Assembly: GCA_027038965.1 (NCBI GenBank)
Contig: JALWFG010000005.1
Location: 310,001-374,000, forward strand
Source of the DNA: Candidatus Desulfofervidaceae bacterium
Lineage (GTDB): Bacteria > Desulfobacterota > Desulfofervidia > Desulfofervidales > Desulfofervidaceae
Direction of reading: 5' to 3'
Length of the DNA: 64,000 bases
The notes under the pieces were generated by a model that was not told the DNA's origin, did not search any database, and worked only from the letters and a program-made list of their open reading frames with translations. The translations under genes were made by a program, and so were the position numbers. Below are positions 2,813 through 29,545 of this stretch, piece by piece (position 1 is the first letter of the stretch; every line of letters starts with the position of its first letter).

Positions 2813-3379
2813 CTAATCTAATGCCCAATAAATCCTCAATAAAGCCGTACTTGTATAATCAGCGCTTGCTCGAATACTTCCGGTATTGTACACCCCATCA
2901 TCGTACTTCTCGTCCAGCATTCGAGCTGCATCAGCAGGAACATTGATAGCCATAATGCAATTGCGCCTGCCAACTGTGCCTCCAAAATTGTAATAGTAAA
3001 ACTGATACTGTCCCCCAAATGCATGATTTACTGGGGTTGTATCAGTCCCATCTCCAGCAATAAGCCGTGAATATCTCAAATGACTCCAAGCATTTGTACG
3101 CTCTGCCGTATTCCAAACGCCATCTCCATTCCCATCTGTAGCCCCTGTCCACCTAGTGCTGGCCTTAGGGTCATCTCCTGGTAAATACCCATATCTATCT
3201 TGATAAGAGTAAACAGCAGCCATCAAACCATTAAATCCATTAACTAAATTTTTCACCTTGGCGTTAAAAATCATTTCCTGCCCTTTCAATACGGCTCCTA
3301 GAATTAAACCAATAATCACCAAAACAATCGCCAGTTCTACCAAGGTAAAACCCCTCTTTTGATCTAGTACCCCTTTCAT
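2813..3379 (-). CDS. Type IV prepilin-like protein (first of three)
   Basis: The start is placed at the ATG at 3379 because GAGGAGG lies just upstream and because this leaves a short basic leader (MKGVLDQKR) before the processing motif GFTLVELAIVLVIIGLILG. An in-frame start further upstream at 3424 would add an unlikely leader. The mature helix continues as GAVLKGQEMIFNAKVKNLVN, then a globular part with an acidic, Ca-binding-like stretch DGNGDGVWN around mid-protein. At 188 residues it is the size of a minor pilin or pseudopilin. It is the promoter-proximal gene of the set and sits about 50 bases behind a sigma-54 type promoter, as is usual for pilin genes under PilR-like activators. Confidence 0.85.
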   Translation of the reverse strand: MKGVLDQKRGFTLVELAIVLVIIGLILGAVLKGQEMIFNAKVKNLVNGFNGLMAAVYSYQDRYGYLPGDDPKASTRWTGATDGNGDGVWNTAERTNAWSHLRYSRLIAGDGTDTTPVNHAFGGQYQFYYYNFGGTVGRRNCIMAINVPADAARMLDEKYDDGVYNTGSIRASADYTSTALLRIYWALD

Positions 3380-3439
3380 TGCCTCAACCTCCTCAATTTT
3401 AATTTTGTTTAACCTTGCTAGCAATCTTTAGCAAAATAG

Positions 3440-3457
3440 GAGCAAAATATATGCCAA
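3440..3457 (-). promoter_or_regulatory. Sigma-54 (-24/-12) promoter of the prepilin genes
   Basis: Read on the minus strand the site is TTGGCATATATTTTGCTC. It has GG at -24 (3454-3455) and GC at -12 (3442-3443) separated by exactly 10 bases, as in the consensus TGGCAC-N5-TTGCT. The expected transcription start is near 3430, leaving roughly a 50-base leader to the prepilin start at 3379. Pilin promoters of this class need an NtrC-family activator; one is encoded at 40770 but a link is only inferred. Confidence 0.72.
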
Positions 3458-3595
3458 ACATTAATCAAGAGGGGAATAATTTAACTACTAACCCTATATT
3501 TATTCAGTTTATAGATTCCCTGGGAAACCAGCCTATCAAGATTAACTACAAAAACTGTAGAATCAACCACAAAAAAATAAATGCACTTTTCATCA

Positions 3596-7458: not shown

Positions 7459-8631
7459 ATGTTTTGGGAAGATATATCCCAAGAAATTGAAGCCATCAAA
7501 CAGAGCAATCTTTATCGCCATTGGCAGGAAATTAAACCGCTAGGTCCCACCCATGCCGTCATTAGGGGAAGGGAAGTGATTTTATTCTGTTCAAACAACT
7601 ATTTAGGCCTAACACACCATCCAGAGGTGATTAAAGCAGCCAAAATGGCACTTGAAGAATACGGTGCTGGCAGTGGTGCAGCTCGGTTAATAAGTGGGCA
7701 CAATCCCCTTTATACACAATTGGAAACTACGCTGGCCAGGTTTAAACAAGTAGAGGCCAGTTTGGTCTTTCCTACTGGTTATGCTGCCAATCTAGGTGTT
7801 ATCTCAGCCCTGGTTGGACGAAAGGATGCCGTCTTTTGCAACAAACTTGCCCATGCCTCTATCATAGATGGCTGTTTGTTAAGTGGGGCAAGGCTCTTTC
7901 GTTTCCGTCACAACGACTTAGAACATTTAAAAAAACTCCTTGAAAAAGAAACACAATACCGTCGGCGGTTAATCGTTACTGAGGGGGTGTTTTCCATGGA
8001 TGGCGATATGGCGCCATTGGTGGAAATTTATACCCTGGCACAGGCATTTGATGCCATTCTCCTAGTAGATGATGCCCATGGCACAGGTGTAATGGGTGAA
8101 AAGGGAAGGGGCACAGTAGCATATTCCGGGATTAACGGAGGATATCTTATCCAGATAGGGACATTGAGCAAGGCTATCGGTGCCCTGGGTGGCTTTGTGG
8201 CTGGAAACAAGGTTTTTATAGAATACCTAATCAACAAGGCACGGCCTTTCATTTTTACCACCGCCTTGCCCCCAAGTGTAGTAGCTGCGGCAAAGAAGGC
8301 AGTGGAAATCATGGAGACCGAGCCAAGTTACTGGCAAAGACTACAGGAAAATATAAGCGTATTAAGAGATGGACTTACAGCCTTGGGCTTTAAATTGCCT
8401 CCTTTTCCCACTCCAATCATTCCTGTAATTGTAGGGGCATCAGAAGCTGCCTTAAACCTAAGTAGAAAACTCCTTCAGGCAGGCATTTTCATTCCGGCCA
8501 TTCGTCCACCTACAGTGCCAAAAGGCAGTGCCCGTCTGCGCATTACAGTCAGTGCAGCCCATACCCGGGAGGACATTGAAAGACTATTAGATACTATTGC
8601 CAGGTGTGCTGGGGAGGAAAAACTCCTATGA
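7459..8631 (+). CDS. bioF: 8-amino-7-oxononanoate synthase BioF
   Basis: BioF condenses pimeloyl-ACP (or CoA) with L-alanine, releasing CO2, to start the biotin rings. The 390-residue protein is a fold-type I PLP enzyme of the alpha-oxoamine synthase family: FCSNNYLGLTHHPEV near the N-terminus, GAGSGAARLISG, the PLP-contacting VDDAHGTGVMG, and the Schiff-base lysine Lys238 in GTLSKAIGALGG. Length and motif order match the family. It follows the TonB receptor by 10 bases and its stop overlaps the start of bioD, so the genes are translationally coupled. Related 2-amino-3-ketobutyrate ligases share the fold, but the biotin context settles the assignment. Confidence 0.95.
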   Translation: MFWEDISQEIEAIKQSNLYRHWQEIKPLGPTHAVIRGREVILFCSNNYLGLTHHPEVIKAAKMALEEYGAGSGAARLISGHNPLYTQLETTLARFKQVEASLVFPTGYAANLGVISALVGRKDAVFCNKLAHASIIDGCLLSGARLFRFRHNDLEHLKKLLEKETQYRRRLIVTEGVFSMDGDMAPLVEIYTLAQAFDAILLVDDAHGTGVMGEKGRGTVAYSGINGGYLIQIGTLSKAIGALGGFVAGNKVFIEYLINKARPFIFTTALPPSVVAAAKKAVEIMETEPSYWQRLQENISVLRDGLTALGFKLPPFPTPIIPVIVGASEAALNLSRKLLQAGIFIPAIRPPTVPKGSARLRITVSAAHTREDIERLLDTIARCAGEEKLL

Positions 8632-28020: not shown

Positions 28021-28442
28021 TACCTCCTATTTATTTATCTAACACAATCTTGGCAGCGATGTCAAAGTTTAACCCAATTAGGACTAAGAGAGTAAAAAGG
28101 CCTGAAGTAGAACAAGCCTACATTTTGGGATAAAAAACTTGCATTTATTTGAACAAAATGCTATATAAAAAATATAGCTCTTTTGAAAATCGGGTTTGGG
28201 AACAACCGGCGAGCCTAGCAGGGTTGGAGGCAACAGTTTAGAACAATTCTAAAATGCGGAGACCTAGGCCCTTAACGTAAGTGCCCAAAAAATCATGGCG
28301 GTTCCCGCATATAAATTTAGTTGCTTTTTAGGCAATTTGCAATTTTTAACAAAAATGTAAAGTGCAAAAATGAGAGGTTAAAGAGGAGGTCTCCGAAAAT
28401 GGCCTTCCAACTGCCCAAAAAATCAAAATAAAAGAGGGGTGC
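28021..28442 (+). promoter_or_regulatory. CRISPR leader region (no genes)
   Basis: This 422-base gap between amrS and the first CRISPR repeat has no supported gene. Its right part is AT-rich and purine-rich and probably serves as leader. TGCCCAAAAAATCA occurs twice, at 28282-28295 and 28412-28425, the second about 17 bases from the first repeat, which suggests a leader element recognised in spacer acquisition or transcription. A small palindrome TTTAGAA-CAA-TTCTAAA sits at 28237-28253. The left part should also contain the amrS promoter. Confidence 0.5.
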
Positions 28443-29545
28443 GTTAGAAACATTGACCCGACTTGAGGGGATTGCGACCAAATGAGGAAGTAAAGCCCTA
28501 AACAAATAAATAAATTACGTTAGAAACATTGACCCGACTTGAGGGGATTGCGACCTTGAGAACATTTCTTAGATGCAAGTTCTTGCAATTTATCATAATC
28601 AGTTAGAAACATTGACCCGACTTGAGGGGATTGCGACACTCCCCTGGCCACACCCGATGGCCGCAATGAGGACAGGTAACGTTAGAAACATTGACCCGAC
28701 TTGAGGGGATTGCGACCAGGGACCCTCGGGGCTTCACAGGGCCTCTCCTCACCACCCTTGGCGTTAGAAACATTGACCCGACTTGAGGGGATTGCGACGT
28801 CGCATATTACCCTCCTTTTAGCCCTCAGGCCGAGTTAGAAACATTGACCCGACTTGAGGGGATTGCGACTTGATTAGTAATGTAAAATTCCAATTTCGCT
28901 TTCCGTTAGAAACATTGACCCGACTTGAGGGGATTGCGACGAGGTGATGACCACACAACTCTTCGCCTCTCCTTTTTCGTTAGAAACATTGACCCGACTT
29001 GAGGGGATTGCGACCTTCTGAGGGTGCAAGGGAATATTCCTTGTCCCTGACTTTTAGTTAGAAACATTGACCCGACTTGAGGGGATTGCGACATTCGTGC
29101 TTATCTTTTTCTTAATTTCTTCAAGCTTTTCTATAGTTAGAAACATTGACCCGACTTGAGGGGATTGCGACCTTTACTTGGCCTCTGTCAAGGCCTTTTT
29201 AAATTTTTATTTAGTTAGAAACATTGACCCGACTTGAGGGGATTGCGACGAATAATGTCCGCCCAAACTTACAAAAGATTTCTGTTAGAAACATTGACCC
29301 GACTTGAGGGGATTGCGACTCTATCATTTTCCTTTTGAAGAGCCTTAATAAATTTTTTGAGTTAGAAACATTGACCCGACTTGAGGGGATTGCGACCATA
29401 TCGTATAGTTCGCCTACTTCCCGTTCGTACCACTGTTAGAAACATTGACCCGACTTGAGGGGATTGCGACTGTTACTCAAGACCTAACACTTTCCGCGCT
29501 TCCTCAAGAGTTAGAAACATTGACCCGACTTGAGGGGATTGCGAC
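28443..29545 (+). CRISPR. CRISPR array, 15 identical 36-nt repeats, 14 spacers
   Basis: The repeat begins GTTAGAAACATTGACCCGAC and ends TTGAGGGGATTGCGAC. Copies start at 28443, 28519, 28602, 28681, 28763, 28834, 28905, 28979, 29057, 29136, 29214, 29284, 29361, 29435 and 29510, and all appear identical, including the last. Spacers range from 34 to 47 nt. The 3' end ATTGCGAC resembles the 8-nt ATTGAAAC handle of type I and III crRNAs, so transcription should run left to right from the leader at 28021-28442. Most spacers read as coding sequence only on the opposite strand. No cas gene is present in the window. No degenerate terminal repeat marks the distal end. Confidence 0.98.

Follow-up and report, generated by a model that had tools for sequence, protein, structure and literature searches.

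Within the window, a 64,000-nucleotide stretch of a Candidatus Desulfofervidaceae genome, we identified a CRISPR array with spacers of 34–47 nt, preceded by a conserved leader. The original prediction held that the spacers mostly read as coding sequence on the opposite strand and that left-to-right transcription would yield crRNAs antisense to target mRNAs; the range on which it was based (28479–29509) coincides exactly with the stretch from the first base of spacer 1 through the last base of spacer 14, and every peptide quoted from the spacers was found again at the sequence level. The features of the locus are:

28129..28442, + strand: conserved leader, upstream of the array, which aligns with five sister-array leaders from the same genome and the family
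28139..28167, + strand: promoter-like site recognized by eye (TTGCAT, 17 nt, and TATATA preceded by TG), partly conserved among the leaders
28177..28189, + strand: boxA-like GCTCTTTTGAAAA, recognized by eye, directly past the predicted transcription start
28443..29545, + strand: CRISPR array of 15 identical 36-nt repeats (GTTAGAAACATTGACCCGACTTGAGGGGATTGCGAC) and 14 spacers
28555..28601, − strand: spacer 2, the most strongly antisense-scoring spacer of the window (difference 4.56)
28799..28833, − strand: spacer 5, with AAGGAGGGTAATATG, a ribosome binding site and start codon, on the reverse strand
29093..29135, − strand: spacer 9, antisense score 4.19
29172..29213, no strand assigned: spacer 10, the sole sense-scoring spacer of the window (−1.76), its reverse strand readable as a gene end
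29397..29434, − strand: spacer 13, antisense score 3.58

The nearest genes on one side of the array encode IspD, IspF, SSB and a radical SAM protein, and those on the other side encode oligopeptide ABC transporter ATPases, TldD and inositol-phosphate synthase; no cas genes were found among these nearest neighbors, which were the genes scanned around the array. Elsewhere, exact matches to the repeat core were found in Desulfobacterales and Deltaproteobacteria MAGs. The DNA taken from the genome comprised the stretches surrounding arrays and cas genes, and included sister arrays in L035 (beside a III-A operon, 9 spacers), in L036 (beside a III-B operon, 6 spacers) and, on a third contig, in L038 (5 spacers taken). 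Sister arrays from the family contributed 18 (G001, L075), 7 (G004, L076) and 1 (G002, L077) spacers. The spacer sets analyzed were thus those of the window (n = 14), the own genome (n = 34), and the own genome together with the 26 family spacers (n = 60).

The L038 array (3152–3581) is a single array with mixed repeat variants that shift with distance from the leader, from GTTGGAAAACATGACCCGATTCGAGGGG... to GTTGGAAAACCTTGACCCGACTTG... and then CTTAGAAACCTTG... Solitary repeat copies remote from arrays were also observed, at about 5319–5354 in L039 and as single ones in L078 and L079. In L036, two spacers (8123–8162 and 8276–8318) cover an MSWEV gene start but differ in the upstream DNA, as if one gene had been sampled from two related invaders.

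Six leaders were alignable, all lying on the same (left) side of their arrays. In one alignment, a boxA-like AGCTCTTT and a TAT-containing −10 region are common to all six; in a second alignment, of shorter stretches, these features are aligned only in the four leaders of the own genome. Sites of the boxA type upstream of natural arrays aid array transcription (PMC7862264). The repeats end in ATTGCGAC, a type III crRNA handle that is also the handle of Csm crRNAs in Thermus thermophilus (PMC8157118). The conserved leader with its promoter-like and boxA-like sites and the AUUGCGAC handle indicate that the array would be transcribed left to right, as had been proposed. The leader also contains an inverted repeat, CGGAGACCT at 28257–28265 and AGGTCTCCG at 28387–28395. 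Of its nine pairs, two differ at both bases in other leaders from the family (alignment columns 189/321 and 190/320; six sequences), and the repeat might form a hairpin in RNA or serve as a protein site. A direct repeat, TGCCCAAAAAATC, occurs at 28282–28294 and 28412–28424, with the second copy near the first CRISPR repeat, and is mostly retained in the sister leaders of the same genome.

A search of the genome for cas10 and csm or cmr genes, suggested along with the original prediction, located three type III loci, one III-A and two III-B, with Cas10 models matching above the family cut-off in L035, L036 and L037. In L035, the gene order is a Card1-like CARF nuclease gene, csm5, csm4, csm3, csm2 and cas10, followed on the other strand by PrimPol, cas1 and two cas2-like ORFs (one of which was scanned), and then by cas6. 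L036 encodes cmr6, cmr5, cmr4, a CARF-RelE gene, cmr3 and cas10, and no cmr1 was seen in this locus, which stops at the contig end. L037 consists of cmr1, cas10, cmr3, cmr4, cmr5 and cmr6 along with a CARF-HEPN csx1. The shared leader and the near-identical repeats of the arrays beside the operons suggest that the window array may feed both the III-A and the III-B complexes.

The PrimPol gene (L035, 9216–10946) matches the PADLOC PrimPol model (E = 9e-80) and an AEP-type Pfam model and lies directly before cas1 and cas2, the operonic arrangement expected of a CAPP adaptation module. There is one cas1 in the whole genome, encoding a stand-alone protein of 327 aa, and the genome has no match to the reverse transcriptase domain (PF00078). 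No genome match to Cas3 (TIGR01587) exceeded the cut-off, all helicase matches falling below it; among the effectors of type I and class 2 systems, Cas3 was the one covered by this genome-wide check.

Raw counting of open frames was rejected as evidence: the two strands are open to the same degree (window, 23 reverse and 22 forward frames; 60 spacers, 97 and 101), and the open peptides that were originally cited in support of an antisense orientation are by themselves weightless. The spacers are pyrimidine-rich, so that fewer open frames are expected on the reverse strand. Compared with shuffles of the same spacers, reverse open frames are in excess both in the window (17.4 expected, p = 0.024) and in the 60 spacers (74.4 expected; the observed count was reached by 0 of 2000 shuffles), whereas forward frames in the 60 spacers show no excess (100.8 in shuffles). 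Base composition masks the strand signal in bare frame counts.

The orientation of the spacers was further assessed with a codon model that included start, stop and SD states and had been trained on genes of the host and the family; the strand calls thus rest on host codon usage. A first model, without start and stop states, called 11 of the 14 window spacers antisense. With these states, which were added after gene-end spacers scored badly, so that the later counts are not fully blind, antisense calls were obtained for 13 of 14 spacers in the window (p = 0.0018), 29 of 34 in the own genome (p = 3.9e-5) and 49 of 60 in the pooled set (p = 7.6e-7; LRT p about 6e-10). In mixture fits, the antisense class in the window is 0.71 and the sense class 0.00 (LRT p = 0.006), and the sense class is likewise 0 for the sets of 34 and 60. 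The mean score was reached by 0 of 300 same-composition shuffles for each of the two larger sets and by 9 of 300 for the window, and a gene set without overlap gave the same outcome. Of the held-out coding pieces that are truly antisense, 76–78% score positive, and the spacer data therefore fit a nearly complete antisense bias. SD-to-start patterns in the 60 spacers, counted with a loose pattern that admits doubtful GTG and TTG starts, number 10 antisense versus 1 sense. The strand bias at the core of the original prediction is thus borne out, as is the ribosome binding site with start codon claimed for spacer 5; the zinc-ribbon-like reading of spacer 3, to which weight had also been given, is nearly neutral by codon score (difference 0.32). 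By inference from the codon phase of the spacers, the crRNAs would be complementary to target transcripts.

As a control, the same code was applied to spacers of T. thermophilus pTT27, mainly from strain HB8 and some from HB27. The type III spacers gave a mixture of 0.50 antisense versus 0.10 sense (p = 0.02), with just 25 of 45 positive (p = 0.55), and the I-E spacers were unbiased (0.24 antisense versus 0.36 sense, p = 0.5; 20 of 43 positive). The 13 spacers of a third repeat family of Thermus (GAAAC) showed a non-significant sense lean. For a distant Desulfobacteraceae array (L070), 37 of 65 spacers were antisense with the codons of the window's host (p = 0.32), and 43 of 65 when the codons came from a small set of local genes (mixture 0.47 versus 0.04, p = 0.03); this array lends weak support to antisense bias.

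Searches for protospacers yielded none in cultured phages for 28 of the 34 own-genome spacers or 25 of the 26 family spacers, none in plasmids for the window spacers, none in 395 genomes of the phylum for 28 own spacers (among the matches listed, no more than two candidates were scored for each genome), none in five family genomes and none in IMG/VR with wobble-degenerate patterns. Matches of 20–32 nt were judged to be of low complexity or due to chance. An MSWEVES match in a phage protein was rejected, the motif being seemingly internal and no spacer matching over its full length, and a scan for SD plus MSWEV returned five loci, none with a spacer-length match. With respect to self-targeting by the window spacers, the genome beyond the array is clean except for a 20-nt match in C13 (spacer 10-9 query space).

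Taken together, these findings make it very probable that this is a type III array, transcribed left to right, whose crRNAs pair with invader mRNA and in which antisense spacers survive by selection. Kept apart from its cas genes, the array would serve Cas10-Csm/Cmr immunity. A promoter in the conserved leader would drive transcription, probably with boxA-assisted antitermination, and Cas6 would cut the transcript into crRNAs bearing AUUGCGAC as their 5′ tag, to be loaded into the III-A and III-B complexes of the genome. Pairing of a crRNA with invader mRNA is predicted to trigger RNA cutting and to activate Cas10, which would then produce cyclic oligoadenylates for the Card1-like, CARF-RelE and Csx1 effectors. 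The Cas1-Cas2-PrimPol module probably acquires spacers from both DNA strands, and if only the antisense ones protect, the surviving arrays would become almost wholly antisense. In T. thermophilus, which likewise lacks an RT, both strands contribute type III spacers when there is no selection, and a strong bias arises as protected cells are selected (PMC7515739); according to a survey, type III systems in general prefer the mRNA strand (PMC8482600). By analogy with this precedent and the survey, selection is most likely the cause of the bias here; on this reading, the antisense bias is a matter of which spacers survive in the array, not of their mode of acquisition.

The pyrimidine content of the spacers is not predicted by this explanation. 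The pyrimidine fraction is 0.606 in the 34 own spacers versus 0.536 in antisense host coding DNA, a value as high being reached in 0 of 5000 resamplings, and 33 of the 34 lean antisense by composition alone, the corresponding share of antisense host coding pieces being 64%. Such an excess would arise if viral mRNAs were richer in purines than those of the host. It would also be expected if composition set the orientation, with the acquisition machinery, perhaps a Cas1-linked PrimPol, inserting the strand rich in pyrimidines such that it becomes the crRNA strand, so that purine-rich mRNAs would give the spacers an antisense look. In a composition-matched test, the 14 window spacers by themselves are compatible with a pure composition bias (p = 0.30–0.37); however, the 60 spacers are more antisense than such a bias allows (p = 0.003–0.006) and fit an all-antisense model, and open frames surpass same-composition shuffles on the reverse strand only. 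We consider it unlikely that composition sets the orientation, and equally so that the adaptation module with PrimPol in this family favors pyrimidine-rich crRNA strands or uses them to set orientation, in which case the antisense bias would be partly built in rather than solely selected.

Slightly less probable still is that spacers are already antisense when acquired, whether their source is RNA or transcribed regions taken up in a fixed orientation. RT-Cas1 systems do take spacers from RNA (PMC7515739), and a PrimPol adjoins cas1 here; however, the genome lacks a reverse transcriptase match and its single Cas1 is a stand-alone protein, RT-free T. thermophilus draws unselected spacers from both strands (PMC7515739), and CAPPs have been characterized as DNA-dependent primases and polymerases (PMC8211822). 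That there is no real bias, with short frames open by chance and spacers used for DNA targeting, would agree with the equal raw open-frame counts on the two strands but is highly improbable, given that the codon-model, shuffle and start-signal tests contradict it (p about 1e-6 for the pooled spacers), that the I-E control is unbiased under the same code, and that no Cas3 was found above the cut-off.

Among the closest known systems are the type III-A and III-B systems of T. thermophilus pTT27 with their GTTGCAAGGGATTGAGCCCCGTAAGGGGATTGCGAC arrays. Both genomes combine III-A and III-B, share a type III repeat end (GGGGATTGCGAC) with the AUUGCGAC handle and an RT-free Cas1, and show an antisense lean of their type III spacers by mixture fit. 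In contrast, Thermus has type I systems besides, with no PrimPol seen beside its cas1, and the present genome has a second III-B locus, other CARF effectors and a boxA-like leader. The CAPP modules of type III systems, such as that of Marinitoga piezophila, are similar in that PrimPol adjoins cas1 and cas2 in a setting of type III loci with a long conserved leader; they belong to another lineage, and the putative module described here is assigned by the PADLOC PrimPol and AEP-type Pfam matches. The coding-strand preference reported in the survey (PMC8482600) is the same bias, there derived from matched protospacers and here from the spacers themselves.

To conclude, the window array is a well-supported new example of the known mRNA-strand bias of type III systems, and the system seems to function in the same way as those already described. 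The original reading of mRNA-directed guides is supported, and is stronger under proper testing, for a property that was already known. The pyrimidine excess and a PrimPol adaptation module in one genome provide a lead on a possible acquisition bias; a preference for pyrimidine-rich strands, if true, would give RNA-targeting spacers a head start at acquisition. More generally, a controlled codon-phase test can reveal the mRNA-strand bias of type III systems from the spacers alone, with no known virus; this makes the strand question askable for many arrays whose targets are unknown.
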